DNA from: Candidatus Bathyarchaeota archaeon
GTDB lineage: Archaea; Thermoproteota; Bathyarchaeia; 40CM-2-53-6
Assembly: GCA_005888735.1 (NCBI GenBank)
Contig: VBBN01000027.1
Span: 1-64,000, forward strand
Reading direction: 5' to 3'
Length of the DNA stretch: 64,000 nucleotides
Shown here: piece by piece, positions 5,287 through 20,226 of the stretch
How the letters are laid out: each line of letters starts with the position of its first letter
Numbering within the stretch: position 1 is the first letter of the stretch
Position numbers and translations under genes: made by a program
The notes under the pieces: model-generated
Told to the model about the DNA's origin: nothing
Database searches by the model: none
The model's input: only the letters and a program-made list of their open reading frames with translations

Positions 5287-6876
5287 GTGCGTCTGGCTTC
5301 CCTTGACCTAATCGTCTTCGAGATTGTCAAAAACTCGCTAATCTCCACAGCCGAGGAGATGGGCGTTGTCCTGCGACGATCGAGCTTCTCGCCCAACATC
5401 AAGGAGCGGCGAGATTTTTCCTGCGCTTTGTTCGACGGCGCCGGTAATCTTGTGGCTCAAGCAGAGCACATACCTGTTCATCTTGGAGCCATGCCCCATG
5501 CAGTTCGGACTGTTCTCTCAGAGTTCGGCGAAGATATCGCGGAAGGTGACAGCATCATCCTAAACGATCCCTTCCGGGGAGGGACGCATTTACCTGACAT
5601 TACGATTGTCTCGCCTGTATTTCAAAGCGGCAAGCTTGTCGCTTTCGCTGCGAACCGGGCTCACCACTCTGACATCGGTGGTGGGACTCCTGGTAGCATG
5701 TCACCCTTGTCGACAGACGTCTACCAGGAGGGTCTCCGAATCCCACCAGTTAAGCTGACCCAGCGAGGAAAGCTCAACAGGCCGGTTCTTCAAATGGTCC
5801 TTTCAAATGTCAGGACTCCTAAAGAAAGGCTCGGGGACATTAGGGCCCAACAAGCCGCAAACGAGTTTGGCACTAGACGGTTCACCGAGCTCGCGCGGAA
5901 ATTCGGAATCAAAAACCTCTTGTCTGGAATGCGCGATCTGCGAAACTATTCTCGACGGTTGATGTTGGCCGAACTCGCAAAGCTTCCAAAAGGGACCTCA
6001 CGTGCTGTCGACTATCTAGACGATGACGGTGTTGACGAACGACCAATTGCTCTAAGGCTCAATCTCACGATTGGTGATGGAAGTATTGAATTCGACTTTC
6101 GCGGCTCAGCCTCGCAGACGAAAGGCCCTGTCAATGCGGTCTACAGTGTCACTCTCTCCGCAGTTTACTATGTCGTTCGATGTATCACAGAGCCTAGCAT
6201 ACCTGCAAACCAGGGATGCTTCGAGCCCGTGCGGGTGATTGCGCCGGAGGGAACAGTTCTGAACGCGAGGCCCCCCGCTCCCGTGGCTGGAGGTAATGTT
6301 GAGATGTCGCAGCGTATTGTAGATGTCTCTTTGCGGGCGTTTAGCAGGGTTGTCCCGTCGCGGGTCTGCGCCGCGTGCCAGGGAACGATGAATAACATGA
6401 CCATAGGCGGGGTCGATAATCGTACCGGCCAGTACTTCACCTACTATGAGACGATAGCGGGAGGGTTTGGCGCTCGTCACGACAAGGACGGAGTCGATGG
6501 GGTTCACAGTCACATGACGAACACGTTGAACACGCCCGTGGAGGCTCTGGAGACGGCGTATCCATTGCGAGTGAGAAGGTACGAGCTTAGGCCTGGCTCA
6601 GGTGGCCGCGGAAAGTTTCGAGGAGGATTGGGAATAACGAGGGAGGTTGAGATTCTATCTGAGGAAGCGAATATCTCCATTCTCGGGGATCGGCAACGCA
6701 TAAGACCATGGGGGCTAGCGGGCGGCAGTCCTGGATCAGCAGGCGAATACTTCATTCTTCACCAGAAGGGTCGCTTCCAGAGGCTTCCGAGCAAAACCTC
6801 TTTCAAAGCTCGGACCGGCGACGTTCTGAGGGTCTCAACCCCAGGCGGTGGTGGTTTTGGCAGAGTTTCACCCTGA
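5287..6876 (+). CDS. hyuB: Hydantoinase B / oxoprolinase-type subunit
   Basis: A 529-residue HyuB-family protein, the partner of HyuA in ATP-dependent hydrolysis of hydantoins or 5-oxoproline-like rings. Family landmarks are a FEIVKNSL start, RRSSFSPNIKERRDFSCA, ILNDPFRGGTHLPDI, the metal-like AAN-RAHHSDIGG segment, NVEMSQRIVD, and the glycine-rich ends RPGSGGRGKFRGG and STPGGGGFG. Length is normal. Start is GTG. It is divergent from the toroid operon and points towards hyuA, so the two subunits are not in one transcript, which is unusual. Substrate is not predictable: acetophenone and acetone carboxylases share this fold. Confidence 0.92.
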   Translation: MRLASLDLIVFEIVKNSLISTAEEMGVVLRRSSFSPNIKERRDFSCALFDGAGNLVAQAEHIPVHLGAMPHAVRTVLSEFGEDIAEGDSIILNDPFRGGTHLPDITIVSPVFQSGKLVAFAANRAHHSDIGGGTPGSMSPLSTDVYQEGLRIPPVKLTQRGKLNRPVLQMVLSNVRTPKERLGDIRAQQAANEFGTRRFTELARKFGIKNLLSGMRDLRNYSRRLMLAELAKLPKGTSRAVDYLDDDGVDERPIALRLNLTIGDGSIEFDFRGSASQTKGPVNAVYSVTLSAVYYVVRCITEPSIPANQGCFEPVRVIAPEGTVLNARPPAPVAGGNVEMSQRIVDVSLRAFSRVVPSRVCAACQGTMNNMTIGGVDNRTGQYFTYYETIAGGFGARHDKDGVDGVHSHMTNTLNTPVEALETAYPLRVRRYELRPGSGGRGKFRGGLGITREVEILSEEANISILGDRQRIRPWGLAGGSPGSAGEYFILHQKGRFQRLPSKTSFKARTGDVLRVSTPGGGGFGRVSP

Positions 6877-7815: not shown

Positions 7816-9948
7816 TTAGGAGAGAGAAATTCTGAAGGAGCCAAGTTCGTCGACCACGTATCGAGCCTGGGGTGGAATGACAAGCGTCGAGTCGTAGTCT
7901 TCGACTATGCAGGGTCCTGCGCCCTTGGAACCAGGACCCATTGCGGAGCGAGTGTAAATCGGGCAGTTGTGCACGAACCCTTCATCGAAGAAAACTCTCC
8001 GGTGACTTGTGCCGGCCGTCCTTAGGATTTTCCTTTCCGCCTTGGCTGGACGATTTCTTGCTCTTCCCCTAGCGTAAACCCTGAGGTTCACAAGCTCGAC
8101 CGTATCAGTAGAGGCAGAGTGTCCGTATTGGCCGTGATGGATAATGTGAAATGATCTGATGGCTCGGTTCAGCAGACTTCGGGTGGCCTTCTCCCTTGAG
8201 ACGGGAACCGACAGCTCATAGGATTGGCCGGCGTATCTCATGTCAAACATTCGTTCGAAGACCATATCGCTTTTGTTGACCTGTTCTTTCTCCAGAAGCG
8301 CCCTTCCTCTCTCTTCCATCCCGCGAAAGGTCCTGTCAAGGACAGGAAGGTTCGCGTCTTGAGCGTGGGAGAGCCTTGTTCTTACAAAGTCATGAAGGGG
8401 CTCTGCGAGCAACAAACCCAGGCTGGAGAATAATCCGGCACGAGGAGGCACGAGCACACTTCGAATTTCAAGCTGTCTAGCGAGCTCGCAGGCATGCATC
8501 GGTCCTGCGCCACCAAACGCGACGAGGAGCATCGACCGTGGGTCGCGACCCCGCTCGACACTCGCAGCCCGCAGAGCCTGAGCCATGTTAGCAGTTGCAA
8601 TCCTAAGAACGCCCGCGGCCGCCACGGAAACAGTGGAGTTCATCCGCTTCGCTACATGTTCTCGGACTGATTTCTCAGCCAGTTGAGCATCTATGACAAG
8701 CTCGCCTCCTAGAAGGCGCTCTGGGTTCAGACGTCCAACTACAAGGTTTGCATCGGTCAGGGTCGGCCTGGTACCTCCCAAATTGTAACAGGCGGGTCCA
8801 GGAGACGCTCCGGCACTCTCAGGACCGACGTGCATGACCCCCGCATCGTCGACACTGGCGATGCTTCCTCCACCAATTCCGACTTCGACAAGGTCTACGT
8901 AGGGAAACCGCACCGGGTATCCTGAGCCGACAAGGCGGCGAACATCGTGCAGTCCGCCTCCCACTTCATACTCTTCAGTGGCATCAAAACGATTCCCGGA
9001 CCAGACTCCAGCCTTTGCCGTCGTTCCGCCAATGTCCAGGGAGATTATTTCACGCGCCTTGGCTTCAGTACCGTAGACCCTTGAGGCAACGGCGCCTGCG
9101 ACGGGTCCTGACTCGATGATTCGCGAAGGCTCGCGGGACGCTTGAGTTGACAGGAGTGTTCCGCTGTTGGACTGCATCACGAAGAGAGGGGCCCGAATGC
9201 GTAGGCGCGCCAGCCCTGCCTCGAGAGCTTCGAGATAACGCGAGACTATAGGTTGTAGACACGCATTCACGACGGTAGTGCTTATCCTTTCATACTCTCG
9301 AAACTCGGGAATTAGTTCAGATGATACGGACACATGTATTCCCGGGCAAGCGCGACGAAGTATCTTCGCAGCTATTCGTTCATGTTTGGGGTTCGCGTAA
9401 GAGTGGAGAAAACAGATGGCGACGCTTTCCGTTCCGAGCCTGCGAATCACACCCGCAACTTTCTTGACTTGGGTCGCACGGATGGGTTCGAGCACTCTGC
9501 CTTCATAGGAAATCCGCTCGCGCACCTCGAATCTGTTCCGCCTTGGGACAAGAGGTGGCAAGCGTTCGAATTGCAAGTTGTACAACTCTGGCCGGTTCTG
9601 CCGCCCAATTTCCAGGACGTCCCTGAATCCCTCAGTTGTTACCAGAGCCACCTTTGGCAGTGACCCTGTCAAAAGCGCGTTTGAAGCGAGAGTAGTGGCG
9701 TGCACTACGACTCTAACACGCTTAGGGTCGACTTTGCTACCTTTGAGGAACCTTTGAACCGAGTTTAGCGCACCGTTAGCTGGGAGGACTGGGGTAGTCA
9801 ACACTTTGAAGCGAAAGACTTCGCCGGCCTGCGATTGGGCAACAAGGTCTGTGAAGGTTCCTCCGATGTCGATGGCCAGCCTGATGTCATCAGAATTCGA
9901 ATACGGGTCCTGCAGTTTCACCAGCCTCGACCTGCCCTTTGACAGCAT
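7816..9948 (-). CDS. hyuA: Hydantoinase A / oxoprolinase-type ATPase subunit
   Basis: A 710-residue HyuA-family subunit, an actin-fold (ASKHA) ATPase that phosphorylates the ring amide before hydrolysis with HyuB. Visible motifs are the first phosphate loop [12 protein letters not shown] near residue 27, [13 protein letters not shown], the second phosphate loop [13 protein letters not shown] near residue 300, [19 protein letters not shown]-like GPACYNLGG and the [15 protein letters not shown] adenosine segment. Length is typical. The gene is convergent with hyuB (5287-6876) instead of sharing an operon with it. The upstream region has an ATATTAAG box about 50 bp before the ATG. Confidence 0.93.
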
Positions 9949-10098: not shown

Positions 10099-11250
10099 AT
10101 GACCCTTCAGGTCCTGCTAACCGCCGATAATCACTTGGACCCGTCAGCGGTTCAATATGGTCCAAGGCGTTTCGAACGTAAGCGTGATTTTCAGCGCTGT
10201 TTCGAGGTTCTAGTCAACTTTGCCTTGGAGAACCGACCGGACCTTCTGCTAGTCGGCGGTGATTTCTACGATGGAATCCTCCCCGGCAACCCTGCACGAG
10301 CTTTTGTGGCTGAGCAGTTGAAACATCTCAGCGAGCAAGGCGTGAAGGTTCTAATGGTCAGCGGCCACCATGACACACCTAGAAGCGTCGAGCAGGGAGC
10401 GTCACCGCTAGCGGTTCATGCAAAATCTGGGCAGGTCTACTTTTTCCATGAACAACGACCAGTCTCGAAAACGCTCGAAATAGACGAGCTAACAGTCAAC
10501 ATCACAGGGATGAGCCTAAACCCTGCTCTGCCCCCCGGTGCAGATCCTCTCGAAGGCGCAGCGCTGTCCCGGGAAGGGCAGGTGAAGATTTTTTTGACCC
10601 ACTACCCTATCGAGGGTTTTGAAGGCTACTTTGGACAAGAGACTCACATACAAGCCTCTTCGATCCCGAAGGGATTCCAGCTGTTCGGCGCTGGGCATCT
10701 GCATCGTCACCAAGAGAAGACGCTGAATGGCACGCACGTAATCTACCCGGGCAGTACCGAGCGAGCATCGTTTCAGGAGGAAGGAGAAAAGAAGGGCTTC
10801 GTCTGGCTCGAACTCGACCCTTCCGGAATCATCCACCAAGAGTTCCATCCCACCCCGGCGCGTCCAATGGAGGCAATCAACTGCAGGTTCTCAGGCGGCG
10901 GAAGTCTCACCAGGCAGGTCGAGGAGGCTCTGAAGAGAAGAGCTGATGTCGAGAAAATAATTCGAGTATGCGTTTCAGGCCGGGTCACACTAGAACAACT
11001 CTCGACCTACAAACGCTCCCTCCTTCTAACCTACACTCAGGACAAGTTCTTCCACGCCGAGTTCGATGAGAACGAGTTGAACGTGCTGATGCAGACTCCA
11101 CTCGAATCCCTCCCCCGGACAACTCCTATTCAGGAATTGAACCGCACATTCCAATCCCTTCTTGCAGGAGCACGTGATGACGAGAAGCCTCTCGTCCAAG
11201 AAGCTTGGAAGATGACAACGGCCAGGCTTCAGGAGGAAGGCGTGAACTGA
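10099..11250 (+). CDS. Mre11/SbcD/YhaO-like DNA exonuclease with variant metal motif
   Basis: A 383-residue calcineurin-fold nuclease. Phosphoesterase motifs are LTADNHLD (D10, H12), VGGDFYDG, SGHHDTP, FLTHYP and GAGHLHRHQ. In canonical Mre11 the third motif is GNHD; here the metal-binding asparagine is histidine. Later residues form a capping and Rad50-binding region. The downstream Rad50-like gene overlaps it, so the pair is coupled. Mre11 trims DNA ends for recombination repair. No herA or nurA lies nearby, which is unusual for archaeal mre11-rad50. Together with the membrane-anchored Rad50 partner this looks closer to the bacterial YhaO/YhaN pair than to housekeeping Mre11. Confidence 0.85.
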   Translation: MTLQVLLTADNHLDPSAVQYGPRRFERKRDFQRCFEVLVNFALENRPDLLLVGGDFYDGILPGNPARAFVAEQLKHLSEQGVKVLMVSGHHDTPRSVEQGASPLAVHAKSGQVYFFHEQRPVSKTLEIDELTVNITGMSLNPALPPGADPLEGAALSREGQVKIFLTHYPIEGFEGYFGQETHIQASSIPKGFQLFGAGHLHRHQEKTLNGTHVIYPGSTERASFQEEGEKKGFVWLELDPSGIIHQEFHPTPARPMEAINCRFSGGGSLTRQVEEALKRRADVEKIIRVCVSGRVTLEQLSTYKRSLLLTYTQDKFFHAEFDENELNVLMQTPLESLPRTTPIQELNRTFQSLLAGARDDEKPLVQEAWKMTTARLQEEGVN

Positions 11251-13634
11251 AGCTCCTGAGCCTCTACGCGAGTAATTTCAAGAAGCTCCAGCTCAAACAG
11301 CTCCTAACATTCCCCGAGGGCATAGTGCTCATCACCGGCCTGAATGAGAGCGGCAAGTCAACTGTTCTAGACGCAATTCTCTACGCTCTCTACGGACGAA
11401 TGATGCGGCCGAAAGAGCGACCGAGCAATGAGGACATCATAAGCTATGGAACCGGGGAAGCCCAGGTCCGCCTCGAGTTCTCAGTTGGAGAAAACTCCTA
11501 CAGGGTAGTCAGAGAGGTGCACAGGACACGACCCAGCCGAGCTATGCTCTACCTGCTGAAACCCGACGGAGCCTCGAAAACGCTAGCGACGACCGTGAAC
11601 GACACGACGAGCGAGGTCGAACGTCTTCTCGGCGGAATAACGTACAATGAGATTGTTGCTAGTAGCGTCGTAGCCCAGAAAGACCTCGAACGGCTAATCA
11701 AGCAGAGGCTTGACGACAGGCGCAAGGTAATCAATGTATTCCTAAACCTTGATAGTTTTAACAAGGTTCAGGACGAGCTAGACCAGGAAAAATCCCGCAT
11801 CGAAGGAACGACAAGAAACCCTGGTCAGCTAGCTAGAGAAGAGAGAGAGCTCGAACTCCTGCTGGAGAAGCTCAAAGAATACAAAGACAGAGAGTCTCAA
11901 CTATCCGAACTGGATGAACGAACAACGAAGCTCGAAGCCGAGCTTGGCGAGTCTGAGAAGCGCTTTGCTCAGACCGACTCCCTTTATAAGACTCTTGGCC
12001 GATACGATGAGGCCCTCAAACTACAAGAATCATTGAAGAAAGAAATTCAGAGCCAAATAGCCCTCCGAGACAACCTCAACCAACAACTCACCAGTCTCTC
12101 CTCGAAACGAGCTGAGCTCGAGGAAGCACAACGAAAGCTACGGGAATTCGACGGTATCACGGATATCGAACCCCGCCTGTCTCAAGCTTCAAGATTGCTC
12201 GAAGAGATGAGAGGACACGAGTTTCAACAAGCGAAGTTTAAGGAAAAAGAAGCCCAGCTTGCTTCGGAGATAGCCGAGAAAGGCCGGCGTGTCACATCCT
12301 CCTCGGGAATATCTGAAAACCATGGGCTCCCGTCGAGACGAGTATGGACCTATCTAGCGACAACAGGGGCGCTAGGAGCTGGAACGGTTCTCTCCTACTT
12401 TCTCAGTCCACAAAACTCTATTCTGCTTGTGATGGCTGTGGTTCTCGGGTCTATAGCCAGTATCTCCCTCATCCTTCTCGCACGCCAAATCGCTTCCCTC
12501 TCGCAAGAAGCGGATGTGTCCGGGAAGAAACGGGAGGAGCTTGCTACCGTCCAACTGGTCCAATTGCGGGAGAAGGATCTTGGCGAGGTGAGGCAAAACC
12601 TTGCGAGCTTGGACCAGATGCTCGATAGAGAAAGCACTGAGCTTACTCAGCTTCTCAAGTCAATCCCGCAGTACTCGAAACCCCTCCAAGGTGGAGGGGA
12701 AGACCCAAAGTTGGTTCTCGAGCTGGCTTCTTCACAGTACGAGAAGGACCGACGGGCACAAGCAGCGATTAGTGAGCGAATTAAACTGTTGAAAGGTCAG
12801 CTCGAAGAAGAAATCCAGGTCAAAGAGCATCTTCGCGAAGCCGAGGCACACGTCCAAACTTTGAAGGAAAAGTTTGGGAACGTCCTGCTGCCAGCCCTCC
12901 CTGCGGAGGTTGTCTTCTCCCAAGATCTGCTAGAAGAGGCCGGCCAGTTCCGAGACTCTTTCAACGAGAAAGTCTCTAGGATCCGCACACAAATCGAGGA
13001 CGCCATCGAACGCAAATCAGAGTATAGACGGTTCTTGGAAGAAAACAAGGATGTTGAAGAAACAGTCAATGCCCAACAACGCAAGGTGGGGCTGCTGGAA
13101 AAAGGTCTTGCGGTAGTCAAGTATTCGTTGAGGGGCTTAGAGCAGACTTCTGAATCTTTGAGGAACAGAGTCAAGCCTCAAGTCGAACGCTTCATGGGGC
13201 TAATCCTGCCAGTCATTACTTCAGGACGCTACAAGGCTGTGGAGTTGGACGATGACTATACCGTGAGGGTGTTTGATCCTGAGGCAGGCGAGTTCAGGCC
13301 GAAGGAGGTGTTCTCCGGAGGGACCGAGGATCAGTTGCTTCTCGCGATGAGGCTCGCCTTCGCACTGGCCTTACTGCCTCAGGCCAAGGGCAGGAGCCCG
13401 GAGTTCTTGTTCTTAGACGAGCCGCTAGGCAGTTCTGACAAGATTAGACGAGAGGGCATACTGAAACTTCTCCGCGAGCAGCTTGCTCAGAACTTTCGGC
13501 AGATATTTCTGATCAGCCACGTTGGCGATTTGGAAGCAGAGGCCGATACTGTAATCTTGATGGAAAATGGTAGCGTGCGAGAGGTCCTGAGCCGGAAACC
13601 CTCTTTACCAGAACCCGTTCAGATTCGCGCCTGA
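11205..13634 (+). CDS. Rad50/SbcC/YhaN-like SMC ATPase with two membrane helices in the coiled coil
   Basis: An 809-residue SMC-type ATPase. Walker A is GLNESGKST (about residues 45-53), then a Q-loop region, long coiled coils (about 190-365 and 430-690), the signature FSGGTEDQ (about 703) and Walker B FLFLDEP (about 737) with a downstream SHVGD switch. At the coiled-coil apex, where Rad50 has a CxxC zinc hook, there are two hydrophobic helices (about 381-399 and 405-428), and the protein has no cysteine at all. It is therefore probably a membrane-tethered relative (YhaN-like). The ATG at 11205 overlaps mre11 by 46 bp; a CTG at 11247, 10 bp after GGAGG and overlapping mre11's stop by 4 bp, is an alternative start. 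Confidence 0.88.
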   Translation: MEDDNGQASGGRRELKLLSLYASNFKKLQLKQLLTFPEGIVLITGLNESGKSTVLDAILYALYGRMMRPKERPSNEDIISYGTGEAQVRLEFSVGENSYRVVREVHRTRPSRAMLYLLKPDGASKTLATTVNDTTSEVERLLGGITYNEIVASSVVAQKDLERLIKQRLDDRRKVINVFLNLDSFNKVQDELDQEKSRIEGTTRNPGQLAREERELELLLEKLKEYKDRESQLSELDERTTKLEAELGESEKRFAQTDSLYKTLGRYDEALKLQESLKKEIQSQIALRDNLNQQLTSLSSKRAELEEAQRKLREFDGITDIEPRLSQASRLLEEMRGHEFQQAKFKEKEAQLASEIAEKGRRVTSSSGISENHGLPSRRVWTYLATTGALGAGTVLSYFLSPQNSILLVMAVVLGSIASISLILLARQIASLSQEADVSGKKREELATVQLVQLREKDLGEVRQNLASLDQMLDRESTELTQLLKSIPQYSKPLQGGGEDPKLVLELASSQYEKDRRAQAAISERIKLLKGQLEEEIQVKEHLREAEAHVQTLKEKFGNVLLPALPAEVVFSQDLLEEAGQFRDSFNEKVSRIRTQIEDAIERKSEYRRFLEENKDVEETVNAQQRKVGLLEKGLAVVKYSLRGLEQTSESLRNRVKPQVERFMGLILPVITSGRYKAVELDDDYTVRVFDPEAGEFRPKEVFSGGTEDQLLLAMRLAFALALLPQAKGRSPEFLFLDEPLGSSDKIRREGILKLLREQLAQNFRQIFLISHVGDLEAEADTVILMENGSVREVLSRKPSLPEPVQIRA

Positions 13635-13641
13635 TTCACAG

Positions 13642-14397
13642 TTGAGCCTCGAGTGGCTTTACACCTTCGACGAGCTTCGAGCCTACAGCGTCGATACGAA
13701 GCAAGGAAAGTTGAGGCTAGGGTCGACTATCAAACACATGCCGGATCTATTAGAGACAGCAGGAATAAGCCTCCCAGAGAATCCGAAGGTCCTTTGTCTA
13801 ATGGCTGGCTCTTGCATCGAAGGACTGGCCTTCGCGCAACTCTACAAAGCCGAGGTGACATGTCTAGACGTGCAGAAACGAATGCTTCTGAAAGGCGTCA
13901 GGGAAGCAAAACGACGAAAGCTGAGACTGAAAACCGTCGTGGCAGATGCAAAGGAGCTCACAAAGAAGGTCAAAGGCACATTCGACCTTGTTACAATACT
14001 CGGCTCTCCACTGGCTCACCTTGGAATATCCGACTTCGACGGTGTCGTGACCCAGGTCAAAGAAGTATTACACCGAAAAGGAACTTTTCTCGTCGAACAA
14101 TCAGATATGGTCTTCCGAATAATGCCGTACTACAGAGATGCCATGGTCCCCAACGTCAACCCGCCAGTCATAAACGTCCACATCAGCTTCAACCCAAAAG
14201 AGGGATATTTCGAACGACTGCTCTTTGGGAGAAACAAGCAGGAGGTCTCCAGAGTATTCCTATGGGGTCCTTGGATTATTGAGTACGTATTGAAAAAGAA
14301 CGGGTTCTCAAGCGTCGAGGTTAATCCATACGCCGACCCCTACTTGACGGTACAACCATTTCTCTTTACCGCTCGGAGTAGCTGGAGAATTGTCTAG
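13642..14397 (+). CDS. Class I SAM-dependent methyltransferase of the mre11-rad50 operon
   Basis: A 251-residue Rossmann-fold methyltransferase. Motif I is degenerate but recognisable as CLMAGSCIEGLA (about residues 52-63), followed by an acidic strand end VTCLDVQ, VVADAKE and FDLVTILGSP. The C-terminal half (from about 150) has no known domain to me. The start is TTG, 7 bp after the rad50 stop, so it is the third gene of that operon. The lack of an NPPY motif makes a DNA-adenine target unlikely; small-molecule, RNA or protein targets are all open. Its link with a membrane-bound Mre11/Rad50 pair is unexplained. Confidence 0.78.
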   Translation: MSLEWLYTFDELRAYSVDTKQGKLRLGSTIKHMPDLLETAGISLPENPKVLCLMAGSCIEGLAFAQLYKAEVTCLDVQKRMLLKGVREAKRRKLRLKTVVADAKELTKKVKGTFDLVTILGSPLAHLGISDFDGVVTQVKEVLHRKGTFLVEQSDMVFRIMPYYRDAMVPNVNPPVINVHISFNPKEGYFERLLFGRNKQEVSRVFLWGPWIIEYVLKKNGFSSVEVNPYADPYLTVQPFLFTARSSWRIV

Positions 14398-14780
14398 GAT
14401 ATGTAGCACAACGGGGTGTTGCGCTGAAGTATTGTAAGAGCGGCGAGAAGTTTCTCCTCTGCGTAATGCTTCGTGTCAAGTAGCCCTAGTAGGGCTGAGG
14501 TCCAGAGAAAGTACACTGTTCCTTCGTCTTCTGTTGCTCGGAAAAAGCCCAGCTCTTCAAGTTGGCCAGCCAAGCTGGACATTCTGCTATTTTTCGTTGA
14601 TAGCCCCAAGGTGATTGTCCAGTCTCCGGTCCGGTCTAGAAATATGCTCATTGTGGCTTCGGAGAAGGCGAGCATGACGCTAGACCCTGGTCTGATTGAT
14701 GTTTCGACGAAACTGGTTATGGAGGCAGGGTCTGGAGGGATCTGTACGAGTCTATTGTCCGGTCTGGGCTTTTCCGTCAT
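14394..14780 (-). CDS. Hypothetical protein (128 residues)
   Basis: A 128-residue soluble protein of unknown family with mixed alpha/beta composition and no metal or nucleotide motif. I take this strand as coding because a GTTAAG box lies 29 bp before the ATG, the usual spacing here, and because the opposite frame is serine/proline-rich and looks like an artefact. It converges on the methyltransferase with a 4-bp overlap and is divergent from dph2. Confidence 0.6.
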   Translation of the reverse strand: MTEKPRPDNRLVQIPPDPASITSFVETSIRPGSSVMLAFSEATMSIFLDRTGDWTITLGLSTKNSRMSSLAGQLEELGFFRATEDEGTVYFLWTSALLGLLDTKHYAEEKLLAALTILQRNTPLCYIS

Positions 14781-16663: not shown

Positions 16664-18973
16664 CTAGCTGTCCTTCGTGATGACATAGCGACTGGTGTGC
16701 GATTCATTTTGGCCTGTGGTTGGGTTAGAAACCTGTGCCTTGGAACTCGGGCCTTCAACTGTGGTTGAGGGTGATGAGACGGGTCTGGCTGGAGTGTTGG
16801 AAGCAACAAGCTCGTCCAGAAGAAGAAAGAATGCTGCGAGAAAGGAGACCGAGAGCAGAATAAGGGCTCCGAAAGCGTTGATTGTCTCCAAAGCAGTTTG
16901 AGTTAGTTGATTCAAATGAGACTGAACCCAAAGATTGGTTGTGTAGTCCAAGTAACCTGCTCCAACGAGAGCTAAGAGTACAAGCGTCTCAAGTGAAATC
17001 GCGAGTTTCGTCTTCAAAGGAATGCCTGGAATCAGCCTGTCCTCGGGACGGACTGGAACGCGCCTAAGTCGTCCGGGTGCCCACCAGTTCAGTCGTTTCA
17101 TTTGAGTCATGATTGCTGGGACGAGGTAGATTCTGATCAGGCTGGCGTCAAGGAGGACAACGATGAATATTCCCAGTCCCAGCTGCTGCAGCATTGGGAT
17201 TCGTGAGAGCGTCATTGTGCCGAAAGCGCCGGCGGTTACAAGGCCGCTTGCCGTTATGATGCCGCCAGTATGTTCTACCGCCCGCTCAATCGCATCTTCT
17301 TCCCTGGCTCCGCTGACTACGTATTCCCGGATTCGAGTGACTAGGAAAATGTCGTAATCAAGGCCCAGGCCGACCATTATAACGAGCAGCATGATGGGCA
17401 ATATCCAGATTAGTTCTGACCCCATGAATGTCTCGGAGAATATGAGTACGCCAGCCATGGCCCATGAGACGCTGAGGAGGATCGTGAAGATTAGTCTCAG
17501 TGGAGTGAAGACTGAACCTAGGGCGAGAAGGAGCGCTATGAATACTCCCATAAGGACGAGAGAGGTCAGGTTCACGTAGTCCTGCCCGCTTGCGCTGACT
17601 AGGTCGGCGACGGAGGCCGTTGCTCCGCCGACCATCATGGTCGATGAGCGGAGGAGAGAGTTCTGAGCTTGCATACTTCTCACGTTCTCTCTGATTCGCC
17701 CGAGAGTTTGTATTGCGACGTCCGAGTATGGCTCGGTTGCGAGGACTGCCCATACCATTCCTGATTTTCCGTCTGCTCCGACAAATGGCTTCATTGTCTG
17801 AATCATTGCCTGTTGCTCGGCTCGGCTCAGCTGGTCGAACGATGAGTAGGGTATGGCCTCGCCCGCCGGGTGGGTGATTCCATAAATCTTGATTACTCCG
17901 GAGATTTTTAGTGTTGAGTTTTCGGCGTAGGAGAGAGCGTGGAGGGCTGTTACGTTGATCCAGTTGTCCGTGACTAGGAGAGCAGGGGTTTCGACGATTG
18001 TGTAGGTTGGCGTAATTGTCCCGGGGCCGAATCCTCTGCTCAGCACGTCGTAGCCGGCTTTGCTGTCGAGCTGGCTCGGAATTTGGGAGATGAAATCGTG
18101 GCTCGTGTGAGACGTTAGGATTGTACTGGTGGCGGGGAGAGAGATTGCAAGTGCCACGAGGATAATGAGTTTCGAGTGGCGGATTGTGAACTTGGCGGCT
18201 CTCTGATAATAGCTCTCGCTCACAGTTCGCTTTCTCCTGTTGAGACCTACACCGCGGGGCCAGAAAAGCCTGTCACCGAAAAGCGATAGTGCCGCGGGAA
18301 CGAGTGTGAGTGAGACTAGCAGAGCTATAGAGATTCCGAGCATCACCGCGATGCCGATCGAGCGGAGCATACCAAAGCTGGCGATGGCGAGGCTTCCAAA
18401 GGCAATTACGACCGTAGCGCCGCTCGTGGCAATGCTCTCACCTGCCCAAGTGACAGCGTGTTCAACAGCCTCTTCCTTTTCTCTTCCATTCCTACGTTCT
18501 TCGGCGTACCTGCTCACGAGGAAGATGCAATAGTCGGACCCGGCTCCGAACATGGCGACGGGAAGAAGCGTCAAGACCAGAAAATGAATACCGGTGAAAA
18601 GCGAACCTATCAAATAGACGAGCCCGAACGATATCCCGACTGAGAGCCCGATGGCGGAGACGGGGACGAGCGGTGCGGTTAGGCTGGAGAAGAAGAGTCC
18701 GATGATTATGATGATGAGAAGAATGGTTATTGGGTCAATGCGTTCCACGTCTGCTACAGTTTCTGACTCGATATCGTAGTTGAAGGCTGGTGCACCGGTC
18801 ACATATACCCCAGGGCTTAGGCCGGTCGACTGTTTTGTGGCTCCAATATCACCTCTCACCTGTTGTATGCTGTTTCGCGGGTCGGTGCCACTCGATTTGA
18901 AATCCAGTATCACTAGCATCGTGTTGTTGTCGCTAGAAACGAACTGGGAGTAGACTGAGCGACTTGGTTGCAC
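16664..18973 (-). CDS. MMPL/RND-family exporter, C-terminal part (frame-broken gene)
   Basis: These 769 codons hold most of an MMPL-type RND transporter: the end of the first extracellular domain, helices with GSDYCIFLVSRYAEE, a second extracellular domain (about residues 290-450) and a second helix bundle with GLDYDIFLVTRIREY. The reading frame continues upstream of the GTG start through a sensible sequence (about 38 codons) to the spot where the N-terminal part stops, so both parts are one gene. The two parts are joined if one base is added in the CCCAAACC run near 19096-19098. MMPL proteins export lipids or drugs using the proton gradient. The break may be a sequencing error, a true mutation or, least likely, programmed. 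Confidence 0.85.
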   Translation of the reverse strand: MQPSRSVYSQFVSSDNNTMLVILDFKSSGTDPRNSIQQVRGDIGATKQSTGLSPGVYVTGAPAFNYDIESETVADVERIDPITILLIIIIIGLFFSSLTAPLVPVSAIGLSVGISFGLVYLIGSLFTGIHFLVLTLLPVAMFGAGSDYCIFLVSRYAEERRNGREKEEAVEHAVTWAGESIATSGATVVIAFGSLAIASFGMLRSIGIAVMLGISIALLVSLTLVPAALSLFGDRLFWPRGVGLNRRKRTVSESYYQRAAKFTIRHSKLIILVALAISLPATSTILTSHTSHDFISQIPSQLDSKAGYDVLSRGFGPGTITPTYTIVETPALLVTDNWINVTALHALSYAENSTLKISGVIKIYGITHPAGEAIPYSSFDQLSRAEQQAMIQTMKPFVGADGKSGMVWAVLATEPYSDVAIQTLGRIRENVRSMQAQNSLLRSSTMMVGGATASVADLVSASGQDYVNLTSLVLMGVFIALLLALGSVFTPLRLIFTILLSVSWAMAGVLIFSETFMGSELIWILPIMLLVIMVGLGLDYDIFLVTRIREYVVSGAREEDAIERAVEHTGGIITASGLVTAGAFGTMTLSRIPMLQQLGLGIFIVVLLDASLIRIYLVPAIMTQMKRLNWWAPGRLRRVPVRPEDRLIPGIPLKTKLAISLETLVLLALVGAGYLDYTTNLWVQSHLNQLTQTALETINAFGALILLSVSFLAAFFLLLDELVASNTPARPVSSPSTTVEGPSSKAQVSNPTTGQNESHTSRYVITKDS

Positions 18974-19086
18974 GGGATAAGCGTCCGTGGACGGGTCACC
19001 GATGTTGTACGCAGCGAGGGCCCGGGCGGCGAAGCCCCTAAAATCTGTAAGAGACGCGCCGGACCCTAGGTCGTAGATTTGGCCGA

Positions 19087-20226
19087 TTAGAGCGGTTTGG
19101 GCAGAATGTATGTTCGGAAGGCTGACAAGCTGTTCCAGTTATTGCAGATTGCGCAAATGGGATAGAGGTTGAAGAAGCGTGCCGTCCCTAGAAACAGACT
19201 GCGTGTTTGATTGTCAAGTGGGAGAGAGTCTATGAATGGGAGTGTGATGTTGTAGAAGGGTGGTTGAGAAGGAAGACCTGGGTGGCCTTTCGTAACGTTT
19301 TGGGCTCGAAAACGTGGGCTGTCCGGGTTGGGCTGTGAGAGAAGTTGACCTTTGCTGTAGAAAGACGCGGGGAACGTCATGTTCCATGAACGGTAGAACA
19401 TGTTCTGATATGCCAGAGCGATCGGCTGGAATGGCAACGGAACCTGCCCGGCGACGACAGCGCCTATCGAAGCGTTAGCCTGACTATTGAACATCGAGAC
19501 CTGTGCCCGGCTGACATTATCAGGACCCGTATTCACAATGCTAGCCCATGTTGTAGCATAGATGCTAGGAATCCCAAACTCGATGAAAACAGCCAGAGAT
19601 GTCGCGTTCTTCAGCTGGTAGAGCTGGGAATGGATGACACTCGTGTAGCCCAGTAGAAGCCGATAGTAGATATCGAATATGCTAGTAACATTGCTGAGAT
19701 TGGACAGTGTCGAGTCCTGCTGTAAGGTCTTGTTGAGAGTTAAGGTGAAGTATCGAATGCCGTTTCCACGGACATCGCCCGAGCTGATGACGATTACAAC
19801 GCTTGAGCCCTGGTTGATACTGAATTGTCGGCCTACAATGTCCTGTGCGAGACTTGACTCGGAGCCTTTCGAGTTGAAAGCTGTCTCGGAGTAGACTATG
19901 ACGCTTTGTACTTGAAGGATAGCCGGGACACTTACGACTAGGGAAAGAAGCCAAAGGACGAAGACCGCACGATTGTGCCGGGTGATAGTACGGGCTAGTC
20001 TTACGAATACCAGTGTCGGCCTTTCCTCCAGAGGCTTGACGAGGTCGAGGGCCGAAGAGGCGGGAAAGCCGTGCTGTAACCACAAAACCAGAAGCCGAGT
20101 AATCACTCGTCCAACGACTGCGTCACCATTCTCAAAATCCAAGAAATCGGTGTGAGAACATCCGTAGCGTAGTGTCTCTCTTTGCGTCCGTCGCGCAGAG
20201 TTTAATTGGTTAGTAGCAAGCCTCAA
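19087..20226 (-). CDS. MMPL/RND-family exporter, N-terminal part (frame-broken gene)
   Basis: The 379-codon N-terminal piece of the MMPL exporter: a soluble lead, TM1 (about residues 105-125) and the first extracellular domain, rich in N-x-S/T sites. It ends early in LPKPL just where the downstream frame takes over. With one extra A in the AAA run at 19096-19098 the protein would read on through ALIGQIYDLGSG into the C-terminal part, giving about 1187 residues, a normal MMPL length. The first about 70 residues before the membrane lead look atypical; a later non-ATG start is possible. Confidence 0.8.
   Translation of the reverse strand: MRLATNQLNSARRTQRETLRYGCSHTDFLDFENGDAVVGRVITRLLVLWLQHGFPASSALDLVKPLEERPTLVFVRLARTITRHNRAVFVLWLLSLVVSVPAILQVQSVIVYSETAFNSKGSESSLAQDIVGRQFSINQGSSVVIVISSGDVRGNGIRYFTLTLNKTLQQDSTLSNLSNVTSIFDIYYRLLLGYTSVIHSQLYQLKNATSLAVFIEFGIPSIYATTWASIVNTGPDNVSRAQVSMFNSQANASIGAVVAGQVPLPFQPIALAYQNMFYRSWNMTFPASFYSKGQLLSQPNPDSPRFRAQNVTKGHPGLPSQPPFYNITLPFIDSLPLDNQTRSLFLGTARFFNLYPICAICNNWNSLSAFRTYILPKPL

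Follow-up and report, generated by a model that had tools for sequence, protein, structure and literature searches.

The window analysed, a 64,000-nucleotide stretch of contig VBBN01000027.1 from a Candidatus Bathyarchaeota archaeon (GenBank assembly GCA_005888735.1), contains three consecutive genes arranged head to tail on the plus strand, which encode an Mre11-like nuclease, a Rad50-like ATPase and a class I SAM methyltransferase (Table 1). The limits of this locus given in a first-pass annotation (10099-14397) are correct.

Table 1. Genes and sequence features of the mre11-rad50 locus, in positions of the window
Feature	Position	Strand	Remarks
mre11-like nuclease gene	10099..11250	+	383 aa; PF00149 41.9 bits
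Mre11 motif III, GHHD instead of GNHD	10363..10374	+	direct reading
rad50-like ORF as read from TTG 11205	11205-13634	+	809 aa
Shine-Dalgarno-like AGGAGGAAG, within the mre11 3' end	11231..11239	+	direct reading
rad50-like ATPase gene	11247..13634	+	795 aa from probable CTG start 11247
rad50-like ATPase, model matches			AAA_23 73.9 bits; Rad50 PRK03918 125.6 bits
Walker A GLNESGKST	11337..11363	+	E at fourth place, as in YhaN
Apex transmembrane hairpin (predicted) VWTYLATTGALGAGTVLSYFLSPQNSILLVMAVVLGSIASISLILLA, replacing zinc hook	12342..12482	+	aa 380-426
ABC signature FSGGTEDQ	13311..13334	+	hook-type Rad50 has SGGE
Walker B FLFLDE, catalytic glutamate present	13404..13421	+	direct reading; conserved in family
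Class I SAM methyltransferase gene	13642..14397	+	Methyltransf_25 44.5 bits; 8 bases 3' of rad50

Comparison of start regions suggests that the true start of the rad50-like gene is most likely the CTG, which overlaps the mre11 stop codon as CTGA and follows AGGAGG. The start codon aligns across relatives as ATG, GTG, TTG or CTG, the latter occupying this position in 11 of 13 soil Bathyarchaeota loci, and GGAGG is kept at the Shine-Dalgarno-like position in most relatives. In two soil Bathyarchaeota loci (L142 and L147) an in-frame TAG is found immediately 5' of the CTG, so that the latter is the only plausible start there. Recoding of the in-frame stops reported in the rad50-like genes of some relatives was rejected, since these stops precede the probable true start.

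Several other genes of the window were also noted. A minus-strand gene (14394-14780), located between the rad50/methyltransferase genes and dph2, encodes a 128-aa protein of no known family that is kept throughout the family at about 40-48% identity. Genes for hydantoinase B-like (5287-6876, plus strand) and hydantoinase A-like, caprolactamase alpha-like (7816-9948, minus strand) proteins lie close together on opposite strands, and relatives have the same layout. On the minus strand (16664-20226), a frameshift near 19100 breaks an RND/MMPL-like transporter gene into two ORFs (769 and 379 aa), while in most relatives it is a single ORF of about 1150-1186 aa.

The AlphaFold model of the Mre11-like protein (pLDDT 91.8) retrieved Mre11 in all its top Foldseek hits, and its fold matches Mre11 of M. 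jannaschii and P. furiosus; the former is also the best PDB match of the family profile (E 4e-26). The metal-site D and H motifs and GHxH are conserved, and the score of the protein is far below the cut-off of the curated Mre11 model. The GHHD at motif III, pointed out in the first-pass annotation, was confirmed by direct reading. It occurs only in members from Bathyarchaeia, HR02-like archaea, LC30, G297 and G437, whereas GNHD is retained in Thermofilum-like, Hermod, Thor, G080 and G308 members. Being confined to a sub-branch, GHHD was rejected as a marker of the unusual Rad50 type described below, and it may alter the metal chemistry of Mre11.

In the ABC head of the Rad50-like protein, Walker A, Q-loop, signature, Walker B and H-loop are all conserved. 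Foldseek matches of its AlphaFold model are Rad50 heads, and the best PDB match of the family profile is M. jannaschii Rad50 (E 1.6e-35). The protein itself scores far below the cut-off of the curated NCBIfam Rad50 model (125.6 bits against 700). The Walker A glutamate was found in 26/26 proteins of the type with an apex hairpin and in 10/10 YhaN, but in none of 27 hook-type Rad50, SbcC and SMC proteins. A signature with T, A or M at +4 and Q at +7 is present in all 26 hairpin-type proteins; if V is allowed at +4, this pattern is common to the hairpin type and YhaN, with the exception of one YhaN.

The Rad50-like protein has no cysteine and no CXXC zinc hook. The place of the hook is taken by a 47-residue run without D, E, K or R, predicted as two hydrophobic helices with a short turn, whose best Kyte-Doolittle window reaches 2.75; basic residues flank it on either side (PSRR...RQI) and are missing from the turn. 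Hydropathy, the uncharged run and the cysteine count thus agree with the first-pass annotation, which had noticed both the two apical hydrophobic helices and the lack of cysteine. The central Kyte-Doolittle maximum was 1.98-3.05 in 26/26 Rad50-like proteins of the broader family, all without CXXC, whereas the corresponding region did not exceed 1.33 in 21 hook-type archaeal Rad50s, three SbcC and three SMC proteins; CXXC was found in 20 of these 21 archaeal Rad50s and the hairpin in none. Such a gap indicates that the apex hairpin is more than a chance feature. In 23 of the 26 members the uncharged run comprises 35-48 residues, with K or R flanking it on either side but scarce in the turn, which is the pattern expected under the positive-inside rule for a hairpin that would enter the membrane from the cytoplasm.

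No sequence of the window's own family lacks the hairpin, whose mean pairwise identity (75%) exceeds that of the adjacent coil (53-59%). The hairpin was called by hydropathy and charge pattern rather than by a trained transmembrane (TM) predictor. An AlphaFold model, proposed in the first-pass annotation as a check, does show helices at residues 381-398 and 407-485, distally on the coiled arms, but with low confidence at the hairpin itself (pLDDT about 50-60). A search of the openly accessible literature gave no account of TM helices in either Rad50 or YhaN, nor of an Mre11-Rad50 complex with such an apex.

The methyltransferase, listed in the first-pass annotation as the third gene, is adjacent to rad50 here, but it adjoins rad50 only in G000 and G020 (56% identical), that is in 2 of 11 family loci, and is absent from this position in the other nine. 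It was therefore rejected as a component of the system and, judged by gene neighbourhood, is an accessory gene and not a conserved part of the locus. Methylation of Mre11-Rad50 after irradiation has been reported in Sulfolobus (PMC8708640), and nothing ties that report to the methyltransferase found here.

The distribution of the hairpin type was derived from a genome scan and phylum searches. It was found in soil Bathyarchaeota (e.g. 13_1_40CM_3_52_10 and BA_23) and other Bathyarchaeota, in Archaeon HR02 and other Caldiarchaeum/HR02-type archaea, in Njordarchaeum, in Thermofilum-like complete genomes, and in Hermod-, Thor- and Lokiarchaeota MAGs. Among sampled genomes, about 25 of 398 carry it in the window's phylum and about 15 of 196 in the phylum of Hermodarchaeota. 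Scores in the window's phylum fall into two groups: among the proteins read, all those above about 200 bits have the hairpin and all those at 130 bits or less have a CPxC hook.

The genes adjoining mre11-rad50 bear on the likely function of the complex. Outside the window's family, most lineages with the hairpin-type rad50 have the gene order nurA-herA-mre11-rad50, which was read in loci of Bathyarchaeia f4, Thermofilum-like, Caldiarchaeum-like (G075), Hermod, Thor, Loki and LC30 genomes, and in G036 herA-mre11-rad50 follow a nurA fragment at the contig end. The HerA proteins of these operons have their best matches to the repair HerA model. This arrangement is the known one for end resection in thermophilic archaea (PMC2288612, PMC8708640), so the likely job of the complex is the processing of double-strand-break ends and not envelope surveillance. 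In the window's family nurA and herA are not beside mre11-rad50, and the pair is located alone between a hydantoinase-like gene and dph2 in conserved synteny. Only two divergent NurA/HerA-like pairs, unlinked to mre11-rad50, were found on other contigs of the same genome (L119:5550-8457 and L120:2864-5401), with scores to CedD models about equal to those to HerA models.

A second complex was searched for in the genome, which is 93% complete, with PF13476, PF04423, PF00149 and the Mre11 and Rad50 proteins as queries. The AAA_23 search returned this rad50-like gene, one SMC and one SMC-like protein of 653 aa, and the mre11-like gene was the only match of its kind; neither a second Mre11 nor a second Rad50 was found by profile and protein searches. 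A second complex was therefore rejected; the matches that could be identified are the two SMC-related proteins, ABC transporter ATPases, the PolD small subunit, YfcE and a PdeM-like phosphoesterase. The 653-aa ATPase (L011:1489-3450), encoded beside a TFB-like gene, has the Walker B AIDEFDVHMDP and is nearer to SMC than to Rad50 models.

The Rad50 zinc hook model PF04423 had no match in 21 genomes of the window's family, a result limited by the sensitivity of the model, as some CPxC proteins also gave no match. The hairpin type thus appears to be the only Mre11-Rad50 in this family; other members of the class have short hook-type Rad50s. Thermofilum-like and a few other genomes have a separate hook-type Rad50 in addition to the hairpin type, and there the roles may be divided. 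In two Thermofilum-like genomes (L235 and L237) the second, hook-type Rad50 has no recognised adjacent mre11. The idea of an accessory complex existing beside a canonical mre11-rad50-herA-nurA set, for which the first-pass annotation proposed a genome search, was thus not borne out: the genome searches turned up no further Mre11 or Rad50, no zinc hook was matched in the 21 family genomes, and in other lineages the hairpin type itself occupies the nurA-herA operon.

A link to the bacterial YhaO/YhaN (SbcE, PF13514) complex, which the first-pass annotation said the pair looked like, is supported. A strong PF13514 match was present in 21 of 41 Bacilli genomes; in all 14 Bacilli YhaN loci that were read the apex is hydrophobic and lacks CXXC, and an Mre11-like gene lies next to yhaN. 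In Lactobacillus genomes only SbcC-like and other matches were obtained in place of YhaN, and three Lactobacillus matches from the genome scan proved to be SMC by size and position and served as outgroup. On a tree of head lobes, from which the hairpin columns were excluded, the hairpin type and YhaN split from the rest with support of 100/98. With long branches removed the hairpin type formed one clade (97/86), while with long branches kept one of its members joined YhaN. Ordinary clustering with archaeal hook-type Rad50, named in the first-pass annotation as contrary to its reading, was not obtained; a topology constraining the two together had an AU p of 0.065 and is not formally rejected. 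YhaN is a long branch.

Profile comparisons favour archaeal Rad50 instead, with an N-lobe hhalign score of 282 versus 116 to YhaN, and the match of the Rad50-like protein to AAA_27 (PF13514) is just at the threshold (22.7 bits, cut-off 22), its best stretch covering only residues 34-69. On the Mre11 tree YhaO does not group specifically with the Mre11-like partners. The hairpin, the Walker A NExGK and the T..Q signature are shared with YhaN, and the profile similarity lies with archaeal Rad50; put cautiously, the hairpin type of archaea seems to lie between archaeal Rad50 and YhaN. The bacterial yhaO-yhaN genes are listed as LexA/SOS-regulated and peroxide-induced (PMC3896406), and a paper cited there (Krishnamurthy 2010) assigns YhaN/SbcE to double-strand-break repair in its title; both favour a role of the present pair in processing DNA ends.

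Compared with the archaeal Mre11-Rad50 of the herA-nurA operon in Pyrococcus, Sulfolobus and Methanocaldococcus, the present proteins have the same Mre11 and Rad50 folds, and their relatives share the nurA and herA partners. They differ from the archaeal hook type in the lack of CXXC, replaced by the predicted apex TM hairpin, and in having NExGK and SGGT..Q where the hook type has NGxGK and SGGE. SbcCD likewise combines a coiled-coil ABC ATPase with an Mre11-like nuclease, but SbcC keeps a CPVC hook and the SGGE signature and is distant in the tree.

Taken together, these data indicate that the locus probably encodes the DNA-end-processing Mre11-Rad50 complex of this lineage, with a Rad50 in which a predicted membrane hairpin of two helices takes the place of the zinc hook. 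Both coil arms would lie in the cytoplasm, the hairpin being inserted into the membrane from inside, and with about 150 residues per arm the ATPase heads and Mre11 would reach roughly 20 nm into the cytoplasm. ATP-driven engagement of the heads would let Mre11 open or trim DNA ends, which HerA-NurA-type enzymes would then resect. The hairpin would do the work of the hook, two Rad50 arms being held together or in register by helix packing in the bilayer, and would additionally fix the broken end at the membrane. We infer membrane insertion and the function of the complex from protein sequences and gene order, and insertion itself is a prediction; of the membrane-anchored complex proposed in the first-pass annotation, the membrane-type apex hairpin is supported by hydropathy and charge pattern, and the missing hook by the lack of CXXC.

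The hydrophobic apex could also act away from the membrane, the hairpins of two Rad50s pairing as a buried four-helix bundle that forms a water-soluble substitute for the hook. The arms could dimerise by hydrophobic packing alone, packing could be favoured by the small residues found in the helices (GAGA, FGSLA), and the AlphaFold model gives two helices and a short turn at the apex. This arrangement is nevertheless unlikely given the long uncharged runs of 23 of the 26 members and the basic flanks, which follow the positive-inside rule. In S. haemolyticus, moreover, surface shaving yielded YhaN, which has this hairpin too and is predicted to be a membrane protein (PMC7137321). Somewhat less probable again is an accessory YhaO/YhaN-type complex for DNA surveillance at the envelope or defence against incoming DNA, roles tentatively suggested in the first-pass annotation. 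The YhaN-like apex architecture and shared motifs are compatible with it, SMC-like complexes can be defence systems (PMC10586767), and the Rad50-like protein gives 95 and 84 bits with the PADLOC models LmuB and mad3, respectively, the LmuB match spanning both lobes. These matches are, however, generic to the ATPase, and PADLOC had none in the Mre11-like or methyltransferase proteins. Lamassu LmuB, although also a Rad50-like ATPase, is about 650 aa long, often has a zinc hook and generally carries an E to Q change in Walker B (PMC10586767), whereas the Walker B glutamate is kept here; the partner is Mre11-like, and neither LmuA nor LmuC was recognised. A scan of viral_contigs gave only weak ATPase matches, for which reason a viral origin was rejected. 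With no true viral homologue and no defence partner recognised, and with the only Mre11-Rad50 found in the genome standing in conserved synteny in the family and in the nurA-herA operon elsewhere, the surveillance role gained no support.

Least probable, and improbable in itself, is that the membrane tether is there for chromosome organisation or DNA uptake, the complex holding or processing membrane-located DNA in segregation, conjugation or natural transformation, with break repair being secondary. YhaN/SbcE reportedly takes part in competence as well as in double-strand-break repair, going by the title of a 2010 work by Krishnamurthy cited in PMC3896406, and archaeal DNA transfer also involves HerA-like ATPases, as reflected in the CedD matches of the second HerA-like pair. 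The relatives nevertheless have the resection enzymes HerA and NurA as operon partners, the best matches being to the repair HerA model, and a search for transfer genes next to the operon recognised none.

Conservation of the Rad50 zinc hook has been described from archaea to humans and viruses, with lethality when the hook is disrupted (PMC5093744). With a Rad50 that has a predicted membrane hairpin in place of the hook, lies in a break-repair operon and is the sole one detected in some genomes, one can ask whether the role of the apex is metal binding, dimerisation or tethering. Its occurrence in several archaeal phyla, including Asgard lineages, suggests that DNA-end resection may occur at the cell membrane. 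The poorly studied bacterial YhaN gains an archaeal relative with a clear operon context, and since Thermofilum-like organisms are cultured, the protein can be tested. The broadest reading, to which roughly even chances are given, is that soil Bathyarchaeota, Thermofilum-like, Caldiarchaeum-like and Asgard archaea possess a Rad50 class not described before, in which apex membrane insertion would replace zinc dimerisation and double-strand-break ends would be processed at the membrane. This class would be the sole Mre11-Rad50 in the window's family, the 'universal' hook would be dispensable, and YhaN would be a fast-evolving relative.
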